From positions 1 through 34,178 of IMG/VR virus record IMGVR_UViG_3300037427_001513: a DNA stretch of 34,178 bases, one strand, 5' to 3'. Below, one piece after another: positions 54-8,836 of the stretch; positions within the stretch are counted from its first letter, which is position 1, and each line of letters starts with the position of its first letter. The notes beneath the pieces were generated by a model. The model was given only the letters and a program-made list of their open reading frames with translations, was not told where the DNA came from and did not search any database. This DNA is from a virus. Position numbers and translations under genes: made by a program.

Positions 54-1106
54 CTAAAAGATTACATAATTTATACCACACTTAAAGTCATACCACTCTC
101 TATTCCAATACTTATTGTATTTACCCTCAACAAACGTCCCTAAATGCTTATTTATTTTATACCCAAAGATCAAACCACCAGAATAATCGTACCATTGTTC
201 ACCATCATTGTAATTATGATAAGAGAACGTACCACCATCATCATAATGCCAAGGCATTAAGTTTGCCCAAGAGTGTAACCAAAAGCTTTTCTTATAATAA
301 TAGTAGTCTAAACCTAATACTAATGATTGCTGCATCTTACTATCTAATTGATCTCTTTTCTTTTCAGTATAGTCTGCTAAAACTTGAGGTATAACAACTT
401 CCTCCCAAATCTCAGGACTAGTGGCAACTACATTTCCAGATGGATCCGTATAGATAGAATTATAAACATCGATATTATATCCTTCTTGTAATGCTAAATA
501 AGTATAATGTATATCACCATTATCTAATACCCATTCTTCTAATGGATCATAACCATAAGGTTCAGATAATCTTTGTGCTAATCCTATGTTAAGAGATAAT
601 TTACCTATACTATATCTATACCTTTCCGATGTCTCAAAATATTTAATATCTGCAAAACCATCTTGTAAGTATTCACCTTTTAAAATATAGTTCTTAGCTA
701 CATATCTAATAAAATGATGTTGATCTAAATATTTAACACCTTCTTGTCTAGTGTAATCAGCTTCAAACAAAAACTCTAAACCTTTTACTTTACCCACATT
801 AGCACCATCACTCCAAGATGTTTCAGTACCGTCATAAAATGTTTGCGCTTTATTTTCATAACCAAACCTAGCAATCTTTCTTATACCAAATGCCAAGTTA
901 TAATCAAATGGAGTTTTAACCGTAGAGGTTTGTAAACCGTTTGTTACAGAGAAAACATCTACATCTGATATAGAGGTTCCTCCACTAGCAGCAGCATAGA
1001 ACGTTGCGAATTTAAAGTACTTCTTAATATTTTGTGCACAACAATCTTTTGGAGCCGCGCAAGCTGTTAAGACTGTTAAGAATAGTATAATTATTTTTTT
1101 CATCAT
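54..1106 (-). CDS. Secreted lipoprotein / outer-membrane beta-barrel-like protein, unknown function
   Basis: 350 residues. The N-terminus is a clear signal peptide: MMKK, a hydrophobic stretch IIILFLTVL, then the lipobox L-T-A-C with Cys16. A signal peptidase I site after CCA (residues 22-24) is also possible. The rest is very rich in Tyr, Trp and Asp and has alternating strand-like segments. The chain ends GINYVIF, and a terminal aromatic residue is typical of outer-membrane barrel proteins. The start overlaps the stop of the giant upstream gene as ATGA, suggesting translational coupling; the next codon is also ATG. A phage late gene exporting a barrel-like protein could serve in lysis, envelope modification or superinfection exclusion, but none of these is shown by the sequence. 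The signal peptide is sure, the barrel likely and the role unknown. Confidence 0.75.
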   Translation of the reverse strand: MMKKIIILFLTVLTACAAPKDCCAQNIKKYFKFATFYAAASGGTSISDVDVFSVTNGLQTSTVKTPFDYNLAFGIRKIARFGYENKAQTFYDGTETSWSDGANVGKVKGLEFLFEADYTRQEGVKYLDQHHFIRYVAKNYILKGEYLQDGFADIKYFETSERYRYSIGKLSLNIGLAQRLSEPYGYDPLEEWVLDNGDIHYTYLALQEGYNIDVYNSIYTDPSGNVVATSPEIWEEVVIPQVLADYTEKKRDQLDSKMQQSLVLGLDYYYYKKSFWLHSWANLMPWHYDDGGTFSYHNYNDGEQWYDYSGGLIFGYKINKHLGTFVEGKYNKYWNREWYDFKCGINYVIF

Positions 1107-4100
1107 CTTGTTCTAGTTCTTGTTCTAGTTCTTGTTCTAGTTCTTGTTTTTGTTGTTTTTCTACTACCAAATTTTTGTTTCTTCTTTTCTTTATCCACAT
1201 CTTCAATACCAAGATTCCATTTGCTCCAACCACTAAATAATAAAACTCTTTCTAAAGCATCATGTTGGTTGCTTAAAGATTCTCTTACGTTTTGTGTCTT
1301 GTTATACAATCTATTAAGAGGAACGTTTGTTAGTGCTTCTATATAACTTGTGTTAGCAGACCATTGAGGATTATCCATGTCAAACGTTTCCATTTCATCA
1401 ATAGTCTTTCTGTTGTAATTAAGGGTTCTTTCAGCATTAACTATCTTTCTAGCTTTAATACCAAGAGGAGGAGAGACATTTAGCGCTTCAACAAGAACTG
1501 AAGCTTCGTCGCCATTCCAATCTTTTGCTCTTTCTTTGTGATATGCGAAAGCCATGTTTTTCAACGTAGAAACCGCAGCACCCCAAACACCAGAACCTCT
1601 TAAAATAGAATCAATACTACCGTTTATAACTCTTTCTTTTTTAGCTAACATCCTTTTATCCTCTTCGTCATCATCAAACATCATCATGAACAACGCTGAT
1701 TGTAAAGAGTAAAACACTAAATTTTGTATCGCGAAATAATAAGCTATCCTTGATAGATTAGACATGTCACTTTGCAATTGCGTTTGATTGCCAGGTGTTA
1801 TTCTTCTATTTTTAATATCTAAAAATGCTTTCTTACCTAATCTATTGAACTGAGATGTAACATTTTGGAAAGCTAATATAACTTTACCAAGTGGAGATGC
1901 TTGCTGTTGTGAAACCATATCAGGTCTTGCTGACTGTTGAGTTGCTTCTGCTAGTATTTCGAAATCAACAAAAGCTTTTGCTTCAGCCTCTTTCTTACTC
2001 ATACCTTCTTTTAAGTAAGTATTAATTCTATTTCTTAAAAAAGTTGCGCCACCAGTAGCGATTGCTATATTATCCCCAATTTGTGTTGGTAAAAAACCTA
2101 ATTCTAACAATTTCTTTATCGCTGCTTGAGCTGGGTTTTTAGCACCTTTAACTGAAGCCGCTAATTCAGCGCCGTTAACATCTGTTTTAATTCCTTTACG
2201 TCTTTGCTTCATAAAGTCAGAATTAAATATAGTAGCCCAATCAGCCCAATATTGTTTTTGATTAGCGAAAGCTTTAGCAGCTGCTATTATATTATTATCA
2301 GCATAATTTATAAAGTTAACTAAAGACATTTGCTGTAATACGGCAGATCTAGCATTAAAGAACATTGTTGCAGCCACAGAACCGTTTAAGTAATTAAGCC
2401 ATTGGTTTGTCTGTTTATTTTGACCACTAGGTCTATTTTGACCAGTCTTAATTCTATATAACATGTCTTTAAGAGCGCTAACAACATCAGCTCCATAGGC
2501 TGCTTCTATTTTGTTTAAGTTTTCTCGCGAGAATATTGTTTCAACATTTTCATTAAACTCAGCGAAAAACTCTCCTCTTCCAATTCTACCAGTAGCATCA
2601 TCTAAATCCGTTCTTATGTCTCCAGCTTCCCAACTTTCAGTAGGTGCAACATATTTATCTTGTTTAGATATAACGTTTAAAGTTTCAGCGTAAGCCCGTA
2701 GCTCAGGATCAGACTTAACTAAGTCAACTAAATTTTGTTGATCAGTTGGAGATAATCCAGGCACTTTGTTACCATGTTTATCCCACAAATATACTCTAAT
2801 AGCATCTTGATACGTAAAATCACCATCTGGAGTTTTCTTAGTTAATTTCTTTTTAACATCTTTAAACTGTTTATTTAATGCTTTGTAATCGTTAGCTATA
2901 GACTGTTTAGCTGTATTTAATTCTCTGTACGCCCTGTTTAACGGTCTAATTAAAGCTTTTTCAAAAAAGTCTCTATGAGCATTACCCACTTTACCTTTGC
3001 CTATAAAGTTGTATAATAACCCTACAAAATCCTCGTGTGATGGTGGTATAAAGAATCTAAATCTACCTTTTTTCTCTCCACGCTTTCTAGCTTTAATAGC
3101 AGAGAATCTTTTCTTAGATTCAATACCAGTTATGTTTTCAAGTATATCGTTAAAGTCGGTGTTCATTGACTTGCTAAACTTAACTTTAGCTTGTTGAACT
3201 TTTGACTTAACATCGAACTGATCTAACATGTTTTTAACAGCTTGTACATTTTGTAAAGCGTCATCAGCGAAATAAAAGTCATTATAACCTTCACCAACTT
3301 TATCTGCTATCCATAATGCTTTAGCCTCTGCTGTAGAATTACCTAGACCAGTAATGTTTTTAATAGGTATATTTAAACCATTAGCTTTTAAGAAATCAAA
3401 TATAGCTTTTTGAGCAGCTGGTGGTCTAGCTGTTAACACAAACATATTTTCAGAACCAAATTTACCTTGTAGCTTTATTGCTTTGTTAAACAATGGCGCT
3501 AACTTACCTTTTACAACTTTATTAAATTCAGAAAAATCAAATGTATATCCTTGCTCTAATAAATCTTGATAATTGTTAGCGTACTCTTCAGCGTTTAAAG
3601 TACCAGTTGTTCCATCTGGAGCTGTAAACCTAACTAAAGATTTAGTTGTAGCTAATGTGTCGTCGAAATCTAAAACTGTAATACCTTTTGTTGAGTTTTT
3701 AGATGAACGAGAGAAATTAGAAGCTTTACTAATTGCTTTTCTTTTGTGTATATTTTTACTTAAAGGTGACTTAGTTGCATTTGTTTTACTATACCGCACT
3801 TTTCCCTCTTCAAATTGATTTATTATATCTTGCTTAGCTTCATCGGGACTTAAATGATCAACACTAAATTCTTCAGCTATAGTTTTCCCATTTAAAAGTT
3901 TAATACCAAAAGGATCAATACCATGCTTCATTAACCTATATATACCAGCGTGACCATCTTTTAATTTTAAAATACCTTTAACTATTTTAGGTAATACTTT
4001 TTCATAAAAATCGATACCTAAGGAAGCTTTTAATTTACCACTAGGATCATTTATTTCTAATATAGACATTTGACCTAACAACGCTTTTAACACAACCTCA

Positions 4101-7100
4101 ACCTCTTTAACATTACCTCTTATAGCAGCGTCCATAGCTATTTTAACTATTTCATTAATAGGTGTATGCTCTTCAATTACCGCTTGATCCATTATAGGTT
4201 TACCATTTTCATTAATTTGATAGCCCAATAAAATAGCAGCTTTTCTAAAGAAATTATTTTGATCTACAGACGAGTGAATTACTAACTCTTCCATTACCCA
4301 AGCATGAGCTTTGTTTTGGTCTGTGTTTAACCAGGTGCTTAAATCTTTGAAAAACTGTATATAGTTATTAAATTTTTCTTTCTCGTTTGTTTTTGTAAAA
4401 TCTAAACTATTTATAGGTTTTAATCTTTTACCTTTTTCTCCAGCTTCTTTTTGTGAATCTGTAAGACCTTTATGATACGGAAGCTTCTTGTGAAGCACTT
4501 GATCAGTGTTTCTGATTTTTTTAGTTTCAGGTATAAACTGCTCAAATCTATCTACATTCATAAAAACAGCCCTATCTCCTCCCGTTAATAATTCTCGCAG
4601 CAACATGTAGTATTGAGGGTATTTATCTAGAAAATTATTTAAAGGTTTAGTTAGACGCTCCCCCCATGTTATACCTAATTTCTCATTCCAAAGACGTTCC
4701 AACATTCTAATCTCAATATTTTTTCCTACTGTTTTTCCAGTTTTTGGATCATATGTTTCCTTAAAAGTTTTCTCTTTTGGGACTGACGCACTCCACACTC
4801 TTTTTATAGCATTTCTAACTTGTTCTATTACCCCAGTATCAGTGTTTTCTTTAGGAAACTCTGTTTTTATTGAATTAGAAAATCGTGCCTTACTATTATC
4901 AATAACTTGCTTAGCCTTTTTAACCATGCTAGGATCAAGTTTGTATTTGTATATTATTTTCTTTGCTATATTACTGTTAATATTATCACTTATACCCTCG
5001 TGTATCAACTCACCCATACCTTGCTTAACTTTACTACGAGAGTAATTAACAGTGTCAAAAGTTCTATTTTCCCCCTTTTGTTTTTCCATTGTATCTAAGA
5101 AACTATCTATTTCAGCTTCAACAATAGTGTTTATATCATTAGAATTTTCTATCTTAAACTTATTAATAGCATCTTTAGTGAGAGATGCGGCTATAAGTTC
5201 CGCTAATTTTTTTTGTCTTGCCAATAAAGTTGTATAACCGCCATCAATAAAATGCTTAGTAAATTTAGCTTTATTAGTTTCTATACTATATATACCTTTA
5301 CCAGGATATGTTACTTTACCAGTTTCAGGATTTACTCTTTTATCTTTTTCTCTACCTATCTTCTTTATATCAAATAAAGTCTTGTAATTATTTTTTATAG
5401 TATTAACGTCAAGAGCTTTTATATGGTTTGCATAATTTAAAGCATGATAAGCTTTATATTCTTCGCTTACAACAACCGTATTGCCTTTTTTAGAAATTTT
5501 ACCCATTTGTTTTATAATAACTTTCGCAAACTCTTTTTTTATAAGAGCGTTTAATTGCTTAGTTAAATTTTTAGGATTTTGTTCTAAGATATTAGTAATC
5601 TTGTTAAAAATAGTTTGAGATATCACATCTTTATTATCAAGATTAACCTCGCTTAAATTCTTTATTTTTCTAACTTTCTTGCTTGGTTTTTGTTTTGTTG
5701 GGGTTGGTGCTTTAATATCTTTAGCCGCTGATTCGTCTACACCTTCTTTTATTCCATCAATAGCCTTTGCTCTAATAAATATCTCAGCTTGTCTATTTCT
5801 TAATGTAGCGTCTAAAAATGTTGTTACTTCGTTTTCTTTATTATATGTATTAAATAAAGATGTTTTACGAGTTATTTTAGTTCCGTCTTGTAATATAATT
5901 CCTTCTTTAGGTGTAAATCCTAAAAACTGTTCGTATACAGCGTCTTTAACAGCCCGCATAGATATAGCTCCTGCTGGATCAAATTTTAATGCCTTACTAA
6001 TTATAGGCCAATTTTTTTCTAATATTAATTCAGCAGCGGCAAATCTTTCTTCTTGTGTAGATTGTGGAGAGTTTATTATATCAACTAACGATTTGTTATC
6101 CATTATACCCTCGTCTATCATTTGTTGATAATCTACCGCTTTTGGATTAACAAATTCTTGCGCTCTTTGGTTAGTTCTAGAAAAATCAGATTTATCTTTT
6201 GTTGGTTGTGGTTTACCTTTCGCAAATGCAACCATACTCTCACTAAGTTTACCCGCCTCAACACTCTTACTGTATTCTTTCATAAAGTTAAAGGCCTGCT
6301 CCCCAGTTTCTATACTTAATTTTTTGTATGGAGTATTTTCTCTAAATAAACCAAACGCAATATTATCTTTTATATTATTCCAAAATCCTTTGTTACCTTC
6401 GTATGTAATATTGTTTTTTGGATTTTCCACAATATCAGATAACGCGGTAAACCACTCCGATGTAGTTTCTAAATCTATCGTCACATTACCTTCTTTATCT
6501 GTATAAGCTGTTCTAAGTCTCTTATCAACAAGATCAAGAACTTTTTGACCAAGATTTTTTTTAATTTGAATTTTAAATTCTTTTATAAGTTTCTTTCTAT
6601 TTTCTGGAGTCATTTGGTTTAAAGCACCTTCCATAACACCATGTAACACTTCGTGAGAACCAACATTCATAGCGCCGTATTCAGCAGCAATCTCTCTGTT
6701 AATCATAATTTTAGTACTACCGTCAGCAGCGGTAATTACATTAACACCATCAGTATTGCTAGCTTCGTCAGCAAGTCTATTTGCCTCAGCCTCAATCTCC
6801 TGCTGTGACATGTTAGATAAGTCCATTCCCATCATTGATCTTTCAACAAAAGCACTTACATAATCCGCATTAGTATCAAAAGCCTCATACGGATCAAAAT
6901 CCAATTGCTCACTAGATATTTCAGCAAATTTTTCCGTAGCTTTTAAATATACTTTAACTCTTTCTTTTTTTACTTTTTTAGCTGTTTCTGTTTGCCCTAT
7001 ATCTACAGCACCTTCATATCCGCCTATAATATCTGCAATTTCTTTTTCAAGACCTAATATTTTATCGTCAATACCAGGCACGGCTGATGATTTATCTTTA

Positions 7101-8836
7101 TTTCCCTTTTTTAAATCATTATTTGCCTTGTTTAATTCTTTTTGTAATCTTATTAATTCTTCTCTATGTTTAGGATCTTTTATCGAAGCATCAATTTGAG
7201 AATCTAAATAAGCATCGTATATCATAGAGTTGACTTGATTTTCCATGATATTATTATTTTCAACTTTAACATCAGCCATAGCTAATGTTGTTCTATCCAT
7301 TTGATTAACTTGTTTTACAAACTCAGCCTCACTCATTTCTTCACCTCTAATACTATATTTACCTTTCTTTTTCAGTAATTGTGGTATAACAGTAATACCG
7401 GTCATAGCAATTCCTTTCTCAGCAAATCCTTCAGTTAGTATTTCTCCAGCATGATATTCTTGGCTACCAAGCGTTTGTCCCCCTATTTCACTAACAAGGC
7501 CACCACCAATCGCTGCACCTGTGCCTTTAATAGCTTTAGTTGTTCTAGTTGCAAGTTTTCTCTTTGGCGCAAAAATCCCTTTAGCGGTACCGCCAGATAG
7601 TATACCAGTAGCGGTATCTATAGTACCTATAGCCCAACCACGTCTAATAGATCTAGTTCTTTGTATTTCAGCTCTAGTACCTGTAACACTCATCCAAGGT
7701 AATCCATTCGGATCTTCATGTGTTATAACTTCAGGGTTTTGCAAATACTTCACTATATTTTCTGGAGTAAAATCTAGTCCATCTTTCTCCATTCCTTCTT
7801 GTAAAAACTCTTTATAAGATAAACCCGCATCCATAGTACCAGAAACAGAGCCAAATAATCCTGACAGAAATCCTATACTAAAACCTAGAGGATTTTTACT
7901 TGTTGGTAACCTACTTGTAGCAAGGCCAATTGCTGGAGCGGCTAGCATAGCGTTTTCTTGCACGTCTTTAGAATTTGCAAGTGCCGAACCCATCATTGCC
8001 ATTGACTGAACGCTGGTGTCTGCTAAATACATTGGGTTTTCAACTGCAGCAACAAAAAAAGCTACTGTTCCACCATGTTCTTCATTGACTTGATCATATC
8101 TAGATTGGTACGACTTCATGTTGTCAGTTGGTTCTTTGAACTTTTTGTCTTTCCCTATTTCGATCAAAGCTTTAGCTTCCTCTTCAGTAATATTTTTACC
8201 AGCAGTTCTTACGTCTATACTGGGTTGTACTTCTTCTCCAGATTCAACACCAAGCCCACCTGCCCTGTACCTTACAGATAATCCTTCCGCAACATAATTA
8301 ATAATCGGATTGTCAAGAATAAGTTTATCATTTCCCAAAGCTATATTAAGAGCAATTTGCGTTTTGACATATGGTAGTGTTTTTCTATCCGTTTCTTCTA
8401 TTTCTGTATAAGCTTTTTCTTTGCTAGGTCTAGTTATTTGTTTGAACCAATTCGCCACGCCTTCAGCAGTGTTTTTAATATTACTTACGTCTCCAATAAT
8501 AGGAATTAGTCGAGATGTATTATCGTCTTCTTCACTTCCAAATAAAATTTGCTTACCTACGTCACCCCATGTTTTTTTTGATGGTACTTTTTTTATATCA
8601 GGATTAATATCTAAAAGCTGTTGTAAAGATATATTATTATTCTTAGCTTTTTTATCAAGTTGATCATGACTAAACTCCTTATCACCAAGCATAAATATAT
8701 TATTAGATAGATCTTCTTTGAGTTTTATATCTGGATTCATCTCAAGAAGATCTTCTAACGACATATTATTTTCTATAGCCTTATTACGAAGTTGTGCCTC
8801 GCTAAAAACTTTTTCGCCTAATAGATATTCTTGCAT
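1103..8836 (-). CDS. Giant polyvalent internal virion/ejection protein with LysM-like, zincin-like and HAD phosphatase domains
   Basis: 2577 residues. Residues 3-38 and 47-82 are a tandem repeat ending SLEDLLEMNPDIK / SLQQLLDINPDIK, resembling LysM. Gly/Ala-rich hydrophobic stretches lie near 255-455. HEVLH at 728-732 is an HExxH zinc-protease-type motif, with E794 (SEWFTALSD) as possible third ligand. A HAD phosphatase domain spans about 1715-1885: DFDDT at 1723-1727, T1802 in VLTARP, K1839, and DD at 1858-1859 in YFADDAL. The C-terminal third has a hydrophobic segment near 2350-2380 followed by MMMFDDDEED, and ends in an Arg-Thr repeat. The motif [FY]-S-[KRN]-[ST] recurs at 885, 1319, 1682, 1708 and 1887, the last two bracketing the HAD domain. 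Its size, its place after the transglycosylase gene and its multidomain make-up fit the large polyvalent proteins ejected with phage DNA (T7 gp16 position). Enzyme activities are inferred from motifs. Confidence 0.85.
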   Translation of the reverse strand: MQEYLLGEKVFSEAQLRNKAIENNMSLEDLLEMNPDIKLKEDLSNNIFMLGDKEFSHDQLDKKAKNNNISLQQLLDINPDIKKVPSKKTWGDVGKQILFGSEEDDNTSRLIPIIGDVSNIKNTAEGVANWFKQITRPSKEKAYTEIEETDRKTLPYVKTQIALNIALGNDKLILDNPIINYVAEGLSVRYRAGGLGVESGEEVQPSIDVRTAGKNITEEEAKALIEIGKDKKFKEPTDNMKSYQSRYDQVNEEHGGTVAFFVAAVENPMYLADTSVQSMAMMGSALANSKDVQENAMLAAPAIGLATSRLPTSKNPLGFSIGFLSGLFGSVSGTMDAGLSYKEFLQEGMEKDGLDFTPENIVKYLQNPEVITHEDPNGLPWMSVTGTRAEIQRTRSIRRGWAIGTIDTATGILSGGTAKGIFAPKRKLATRTTKAIKGTGAAIGGGLVSEIGGQTLGSQEYHAGEILTEGFAEKGIAMTGITVIPQLLKKKGKYSIRGEEMSEAEFVKQVNQMDRTTLAMADVKVENNNIMENQVNSMIYDAYLDSQIDASIKDPKHREELIRLQKELNKANNDLKKGNKDKSSAVPGIDDKILGLEKEIADIIGGYEGAVDIGQTETAKKVKKERVKVYLKATEKFAEISSEQLDFDPYEAFDTNADYVSAFVERSMMGMDLSNMSQQEIEAEANRLADEASNTDGVNVITAADGSTKIMINREIAAEYGAMNVGSHEVLHGVMEGALNQMTPENRKKLIKEFKIQIKKNLGQKVLDLVDKRLRTAYTDKEGNVTIDLETTSEWFTALSDIVENPKNNITYEGNKGFWNNIKDNIAFGLFRENTPYKKLSIETGEQAFNFMKEYSKSVEAGKLSESMVAFAKGKPQPTKDKSDFSRTNQRAQEFVNPKAVDYQQMIDEGIMDNKSLVDIINSPQSTQEERFAAAELILEKNWPIISKALKFDPAGAISMRAVKDAVYEQFLGFTPKEGIILQDGTKITRKTSLFNTYNKENEVTTFLDATLRNRQAEIFIRAKAIDGIKEGVDESAAKDIKAPTPTKQKPSKKVRKIKNLSEVNLDNKDVISQTIFNKITNILEQNPKNLTKQLNALIKKEFAKVIIKQMGKISKKGNTVVVSEEYKAYHALNYANHIKALDVNTIKNNYKTLFDIKKIGREKDKRVNPETGKVTYPGKGIYSIETNKAKFTKHFIDGGYTTLLARQKKLAELIAASLTKDAINKFKIENSNDINTIVEAEIDSFLDTMEKQKGENRTFDTVNYSRSKVKQGMGELIHEGISDNINSNIAKKIIYKYKLDPSMVKKAKQVIDNSKARFSNSIKTEFPKENTDTGVIEQVRNAIKRVWSASVPKEKTFKETYDPKTGKTVGKNIEIRMLERLWNEKLGITWGERLTKPLNNFLDKYPQYYMLLRELLTGGDRAVFMNVDRFEQFIPETKKIRNTDQVLHKKLPYHKGLTDSQKEAGEKGKRLKPINSLDFTKTNEKEKFNNYIQFFKDLSTWLNTDQNKAHAWVMEELVIHSSVDQNNFFRKAAILLGYQINENGKPIMDQAVIEEHTPINEIVKIAMDAAIRGNVKEVEVVLKALLGQMSILEINDPSGKLKASLGIDFYEKVLPKIVKGILKLKDGHAGIYRLMKHGIDPFGIKLLNGKTIAEEFSVDHLSPDEAKQDIINQFEEGKVRYSKTNATKSPLSKNIHKRKAISKASNFSRSSKNSTKGITVLDFDDTLATTKSLVRFTAPDGTTGTLNAEEYANNYQDLLEQGYTFDFSEFNKVVKGKLAPLFNKAIKLQGKFGSENMFVLTARPPAAQKAIFDFLKANGLNIPIKNITGLGNSTAEAKALWIADKVGEGYNDFYFADDALQNVQAVKNMLDQFDVKSKVQQAKVKFSKSMNTDFNDILENITGIESKKRFSAIKARKRGEKKGRFRFFIPPSHEDFVGLLYNFIGKGKVGNAHRDFFEKALIRPLNRAYRELNTAKQSIANDYKALNKQFKDVKKKLTKKTPDGDFTYQDAIRVYLWDKHGNKVPGLSPTDQQNLVDLVKSDPELRAYAETLNVISKQDKYVAPTESWEAGDIRTDLDDATGRIGRGEFFAEFNENVETIFSRENLNKIEAAYGADVVSALKDMLYRIKTGQNRPSGQNKQTNQWLNYLNGSVAATMFFNARSAVLQQMSLVNFINYADNNIIAAAKAFANQKQYWADWATIFNSDFMKQRRKGIKTDVNGAELAASVKGAKNPAQAAIKKLLELGFLPTQIGDNIAIATGGATFLRNRINTYLKEGMSKKEAEAKAFVDFEILAEATQQSARPDMVSQQQASPLGKVILAFQNVTSQFNRLGKKAFLDIKNRRITPGNQTQLQSDMSNLSRIAYYFAIQNLVFYSLQSALFMMMFDDDEEDKRMLAKKERVINGSIDSILRGSGVWGAAVSTLKNMAFAYHKERAKDWNGDEASVLVEALNVSPPLGIKARKIVNAERTLNYNRKTIDEMETFDMDNPQWSANTSYIEALTNVPLNRLYNKTQNVRESLSNQHDALERVLLFSGWSKWNLGIEDVDKEKKKQKFGSRKTTKTRTRTRTRTRTRTR
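1107..1154 (-). repeat. 12-bp tandem repeat at the 3' end of the giant gene
   Basis: The plus strand shows three perfect copies of cttgttctagtt (1107-1142) and a fourth with two mismatches (1143-1154). In the gene's frame it encodes alternating Arg-Thr, ending the protein in (TR)n directly before the TGA stop. That stop overlaps the start of the next gene. Because the unit is a multiple of three, copy-number changes would lengthen or shorten the basic tail without a frameshift. Confidence 0.9.
8591..8830 (-). repeat. Tandem LysM-like coding repeat (two copies, 44-residue period)
   Basis: The first 82 residues of the giant protein contain two diverged copies: LGEKVFSEAQLRNKA...NNMSLEDLLEMNPDIK and LGDKEFSHDQLDKKA...NNISLQQLLDINPDIK. 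The pattern (short hairpin, helix with Ala, SLxxLLxxNPDI) resembles LysM peptidoglycan-binding units. The duplication is directly visible; the LysM identity is an inference. Confidence 0.7.

Follow-up and report, generated by a model that had tools for sequence, protein, structure and literature searches.

A predicted HAD phosphatase with a variable cap in a giant, likely injected phage protein

The IMG/VR virus record IMGVR_UViG_3300037427_001513 was analysed over positions 1 to 34,178 (hereafter the window, 34,178 nucleotides). It encodes a giant protein of which residues 1715–1887 are, by sequence and predicted fold, a HAD phosphatase (Table 1). We infer activity, delivery and a macromolecular substrate for this domain, and tentatively put the probability of the combined reading, an injected phosphatase acting on nucleic acids or nucleic-acid ends, at roughly 0.4. 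The greater surprise is not the HAD motifs themselves, but the swappable C1 cap, which in some relatives holds a nested kinase.

Sequence, fold and conservation of the HAD domain

An initial annotation of the window had listed DFDDT, a TAR with T1802, K1839 and an FADD with D1858 and D1859 as HAD motifs in residues 1715–1885. All of them are present and in HAD order, and these residues do correspond to positions 3182–3694. The annotation had also named loss of the DxD and DD residues in close relatives as a sign against a HAD domain; such loss did not occur, as each pair is kept in 321 of 321 relatives.

Table 1. Coordinates of the giant protein gene and of the features within it.
Feature	Position	Strand	Basis
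Giant protein gene, polyvalent-protein-like	1103..8836	(-)	single ORF, 2577 aa
HExxH motif HEVLH, residues 728-732, of a probable zincin metallopeptidase	6641..6655	(-)	motif count over 278 giants
HAD phosphatase domain (by sequence and predicted fold), residues 1715-1887	3176..3694	(-)	alignment A2, HMM, AlphaFold2, Foldseek
HAD motif I, DFDDT: D1723 (predicted nucleophile), D1725 (predicted general acid/base), T1727	3656..3670	(-)	DxDxT 321/321
Flap β-hairpin, residues 1735-1747, C1 cap site	3596..3634	(-)	strands E21-24, E30-33 of the model
HAD motif II, T1802-A-R	3425..3433	(-)	TAR 320/321, SQR 1/321
HAD motif III, K1839	3320..3322	(-)	K 321/321
HAD motif IV, D1858-D1859, Mg binding (predicted)	3260..3265	(-)	DD 321/321
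C-terminal core, about 690 aa	1106..3175	(-)	found in each giant examined

A search with the HAD region showed that relatives of it are encoded on at least 595 viral contigs, and in the first 81 relatives collected all HAD catalytic positions are invariant. Added searches reaching more divergent copies were used to assemble 321 complete HAD domains, with some loci sharing one contig, and the ordered motifs I–IV that mark the HAD superfamily (DxDx[TV], S/T, K, DD) are found in every one of the 321. The 289 distinct sequences have a mean pairwise identity of 57% (minimum 38%), and just 18 of about 154 columns are invariant among them. These 18 include all seven catalytic positions (D1723, D1725, T1727, T1802, K1839, D1858 and D1859), an outcome with a hypergeometric probability of ~1e-7. 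Since most searches used peptides from the HAD domain, the collection was repeated with the C-terminal core of the giant as a bait that is independent of the HAD. Here, the domain is found in 51 of the 54 giants that could be assessed, with zero degenerate copies, and is absent altogether from three (L220, L224, L225) though the core is kept. It is therefore widespread, yet not strictly essential.

Seven relatives at first seem to be without motif I, but it has not been lost, as it sits upstream of an inserted domain; in L182 the sequence is truncated and ends before motif I. When the domain, its divergent forms, the entire giant and the C-terminal core were compared with annotated phages by tblastn, no match was found, and so no named phage bears the domain at the sensitivity of tblastn. 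A search of a genome collection found it on two MAG contigs only, which are probably phage contamination.

The claim of a HAD fold was borne out by structure prediction. The AlphaFold2 model of the domain, based on alignment A2, has a mean pLDDT of 80.7 and a pTM of 0.73, and has the alternating strand-helix core of HAD proteins with a flap hairpin after motif I. Model and Foldseek together give the Rossmannoid arrangement in which motif I lies at the end of strand S1 and is followed by the squiggle and the flap hairpin. In the PDB, Foldseek ranks a plant vegetative storage protein and Lem4, a HAD effector domain from Legionella, as best matches (E 8.5e-4, with low TM-scores of 0.41–0.43), and in BFVD it finds the same domain in further giants of uncultured viruses, plus phage polynucleotide kinase/phosphatases. 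Sequence profiles also match, as the initial annotation had expected, if weakly: Pfam DUF2608 (PF11019) is found at cut-off in 27 of 27 members of A2, and the PF12710 HAD family in 8 of 27. The DUF2608 match scores 22.6 bits, which equals the gathering score, and covers just 33 of 244 positions, around motif IV. The match of the PHROG polynucleotide kinase to the window domain is likewise weak (2e-4 over 176 residues), and when the HAD profile was compared with a phage PNK by hhalign, motif I alone was aligned (probability 3.7%). Searches of Pfam, NCBIfam and PDB sequences with the single domain gave marginal or chance matches only. The HMM matches for the domain thus seem weak but directed at HAD.

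Domains inserted at the flap hairpin

The flap hairpin carries no insert in the window, and in some relatives it bears a kinase or an ART-like domain. In 31 distinct relatives, a P-loop kinase of ~199 aa, always inserted at the same site, separates motif I from motif II, so that motif I is found ~200 residues farther upstream; a search with the kinase gave 37 loci, mostly of this nested form. The insert is past the cut-off for two Pfam families, Zeta_toxin (2e-14) and AAA_33 (5e-14), and it matches the PHROG polynucleotide kinase (2e-11) as well as, by hhalign, the PNK of a Streptomyces phage (probability 95%), near whose gene there is an RNA ligase gene. The model of kinase and HAD together (pLDDT 86.8) is of higher quality than the one for the simple form. 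It places the kinase between flap strands E27-32 and E233-238, that is, in the middle of the flap β-hairpin, and it is by this position that a C1 cap is defined (PMC8069645). When the kinase-HAD model was used in Foldseek, zeta toxin and T4 Pnk led the matches by E-value, with zeta toxin lowest. Target-normalised TM-scores are 0.69–0.72 for bacterial Pnkp kinase, 0.68 for the T4 Pnk kinase domain and 0.47–0.51 for zeta toxin, and on the models the nested kinase appears structurally closest to polynucleotide kinases. One further relative (L196) has a 136-aa insert at the flap site (L196:7783-8175) with a weak match to ART-PolyVal (E 0.011, below cut-off), possibly an ADP-ribosyltransferase.

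A tree built on the C-terminal core requires at least nine gains or losses of the kinase, and close neighbours differ in whether they have it (L170/L171, L178/L179). The kinase cap therefore behaves as an exchangeable cassette. L196 and L197 are likewise unlike in their cap, despite very short sister branches on the same tree. It is possible, although we hold it with some doubt, that the HAD serves as a chassis within a protein that these phages inject. Its cap (small hairpin, PNK-like or possibly ADP-ribosyltransferase) would be swapped by recombination, changing the partner of the phosphatase while the active site stays fixed, and the nested form would be a virion-delivered end-healing enzyme that is built unlike Pnkp.

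RNA end repair usually involves RNA ligase as a partner enzyme. An ATP-grasp RNA ligase was found in just 2 of 74 distinct, mostly partial, phage records, and the set of 28 records with a kinase cap gave none; a search with a T4 Rnl1 model gave no match, but its control was silent too. RNA ligase association, which would have supported RNA repair, is thus not borne out, and the count of 2 in 74 weakens a T4-style reading of that kind. For 2H domains, Iyer et al. argued against RNA repair from the same lack of ligases (PMC5512222), and jumbo phages usually bear a tandem PNK-HAD along with ligases (PMC7824862). The likeness to T4 Pnk proposed in the initial annotation gains unexpected support from the PNK/zeta-like kinase nested in the HAD of the 31 relatives. 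Like T4 Pnk and PNKP, the window protein has a DxDxT HAD phosphatase, and some relatives couple the HAD with a PNK-like P-loop kinase. However, T4 Pnk is a free enzyme with kinase and then phosphatase in tandem and with RNA ligase as a partner, whereas the kinase of the relatives is nested within the flap of the HAD, inside a giant protein, and most members are without a kinase. The window domain possibly works like Pnkp, but it is not classed as Pnkp, because the window protein has no 5'-kinase, its lineage has no ligase association, and the hhalign match is to motif I only.

The giant protein and its phage lineage

In 144 complete giants, the HAD and the adjoining ~690-aa core can be aligned end to end. 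Coverage of the core is 1.0, with ~54% identity as far as residue ~2500, and the N-terminal 1300–2900 residues differ among these giants. Upstream of the HAD, a single HExxH is found in 264 of 278 giants, as opposed to 3 after shuffling, and it stands in several differing sequence contexts. The zincin is assigned by this motif, as the window protein has no zincin match in Pfam.

Polyvalent proteins have been described from conjugative elements as well as from phages (Iyer et al. 2017, PMC5512222). Like the window giant, they are giant multidomain proteins with variable enzyme modules, a zincin-like HExxH and synteny with virion genes, and their injection with the DNA is predicted. The window protein combines the HExxH motif and the HAD in one 2577-aa chain, to which set its relatives add the kinase and the possible ART domain; with its variable N-terminus, one putative HExxH zincin, HAD and fixed C-terminal core it fits the class in its architecture. 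It differs from the surveyed polyvalent proteins in that the HAD is near-universal in one phage lineage and hosts inserted enzyme domains. Zeta-like kinases are mentioned in the main text of PMC5512222, and in that main text there is no mention of HAD phosphatase or polynucleotide kinase domains.

Several smaller features were seen in and around the giant gene. The protein ends in RTRTRTRTRTR (alternating Arg-Thr), a basic low-complexity tail at its extreme C-terminus (1106-1150, (-)). Tripeptides of the form [FY]S[KR] adjoin its domain borders (residues 885, 1265, 1682, 1708 and 1887); they are ~twofold enriched over shuffles in the 278 giants, partly owing to one conserved site, and are possible protease sites. 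Downstream of the giant, a 350-aa ORF (54-1106, (-)) shares 4 bases with the stop of the giant and has a lipoprotein-like signal (LTAC) at its start. In some relatives the HAD is separated from the C-terminal core by extra inserts of about 175 or 445 aa (L178:7330-8664, L203:8128-8655), in which zero Pfam families were found above cut-off.

The window terminase is 64% identical and its portal 53% identical to those of the environmental podovirus MW202828. The terminase is also 33–47% identical to that of Elemovirus, Cellulophaga and Tenacibaculum phages, and the portal 49% identical to that of the Maribacter phage Panino. The same terminase is found in 28 of 28 relatives tested, and the HAD bearers are therefore one lineage, which probably infects Bacteroidota; the window's marine phage itself probably infects flavobacteria. 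By gene-order comparison, the giant gene is the last of the large genes in the window's virion run. Its syntenic counterparts, also the final large gene after the virion cluster, are a 3694-aa protein of Elemovirus elemoA (L088) and the 1691-aa gp101 of Cellulophaga phage phi38:1, where the label ‘structural protein’ is those records' own annotation. These giants share with that of the window the gene position, the terminase/portal lineage and, via the MW202828 phage, an N-terminal similarity (window giant against the MW202828 giant: weak match, 4e-7). They differ in that the cultured relatives have no HAD of this kind, and homology of their giants to the window's C-terminal core is not detectable. 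Evidence for a place in the virion thus transfers to the window by synteny and the weak N-terminal match only. On synteny and the annotations of relatives, the giant protein is likely carried in the virion and injected with the DNA. As for the records themselves, the structural notes of phi38:1 (KC821614.1) cite phi18:1 gene numbers, e.g. gp101; the phi18:1 record (NC_021790.1) has 65 genes and no gp101, and the notes probably name the wrong phage.

Mode of action and substrate

In the reading that we prefer, the HAD domain would be an active Mg2+-dependent phosphatase, one module of a virion-borne polyvalent giant that is delivered to a Bacteroidota host together with the phage DNA. The phosphoryl group would be transferred via D1723, with D1725 as acid/base, while T1802 and K1839 would hold the phosphate and D1858/D1859 would bind Mg. 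The single zincin may release the modules of the giant by proteolysis; zincins have been proposed to process the polyvalent protein chain (PMC5512222). Given the small cap and the probably open active site in the window phage, the substrate would most likely be macromolecular, either the terminal phosphate of a nucleic acid or a large phosphorylated molecule of another kind. Open, small-cap HADs, PNKP among them, usually act on macromolecules (PMC8069645), and the PNK-like nested kinase favours nucleic-acid ends as the target. Phosphate would be removed early in infection, undoing or pre-empting a host response. In some relatives the PNK-like kinase would take the place of the small cap, and the resulting nested kinase-phosphatase may act like T4 Pnk in end healing, though built otherwise.

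Zeta toxins phosphorylate UDP-GlcNAc. An alternative that we consider unlikely, if worth serious attention, is that the HAD dephosphorylates small nucleotides, sugars or defence signals such as nucleotide second messengers and UDP-sugars, with the kinase cap working on the same small-molecule pool. The kinase insert is past the Pfam Zeta_toxin cut-off, zeta toxin has the lowest E-value in Foldseek, RNA ligases are nearly absent, and polyvalent proteins have been proposed to bear zeta-like kinases and nucleotide-signal-degrading enzymes (PMC5512222). However, most members have a small cap, which suggests an open site, and HADs for small metabolites are usually closed by their cap (PMC8069645); the target-normalised TM-score of the kinase is also higher for polynucleotide kinases than for zeta toxin. 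Unlike in zeta toxin/PezT, the kinase of the relatives is nested in a phosphatase, and there is no kinase in the window protein.

It is less probable still that the domain is a protein phosphatase effector that dephosphorylates host proteins. This would resemble the Legionella proteins Lem4 and Ceg4 and the DUF2608 proteins, in which a HAD acts in another cell; Lem4 and Ceg4 HAD domains are among the top PDB fold matches, all 27 members have the weak DUF2608 match, and proteins are often substrates of open HADs. The likeness in fold and profile is weak, though, with low TM-scores (0.41–0.47) and a DUF2608 match spanning only ~33 residues around motif IV, the delivery route is another one, and the fold of the nested kinase is not that of protein kinases. 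We give little credence to a mainly structural or assembly role of the HAD fold in the giant, with catalysis incidental: nearly all giants do have the HAD fixed beside the C-terminal core and differ in their N-terminus, but a structural fold has no need of the catalytic residues that are among just 18 invariant columns, and three giants keep the core without the HAD. That the motifs match by chance in an unrelated protein, or stem from an assembly artefact, would agree with the marginal single-sequence profile scores, but is refuted by >300 loci with invariant motifs and by the predicted HAD fold.

The first minutes after entry, in which nothing but the factors that accompany the DNA can act, are when a phage is most vulnerable. 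In an abundant marine lineage, a strictly conserved phosphatase delivered at entry would point to a phosphate-based process of the host that has to be countered before phage gene expression. The nested kinase in relatives suggests that the delivered enzyme modifies the phosphates of nucleic acids or of molecules related to them, and the series of no cap insert, kinase and ART-like domain on one catalytic core may serve as a natural test of how the cap sets substrate and function.
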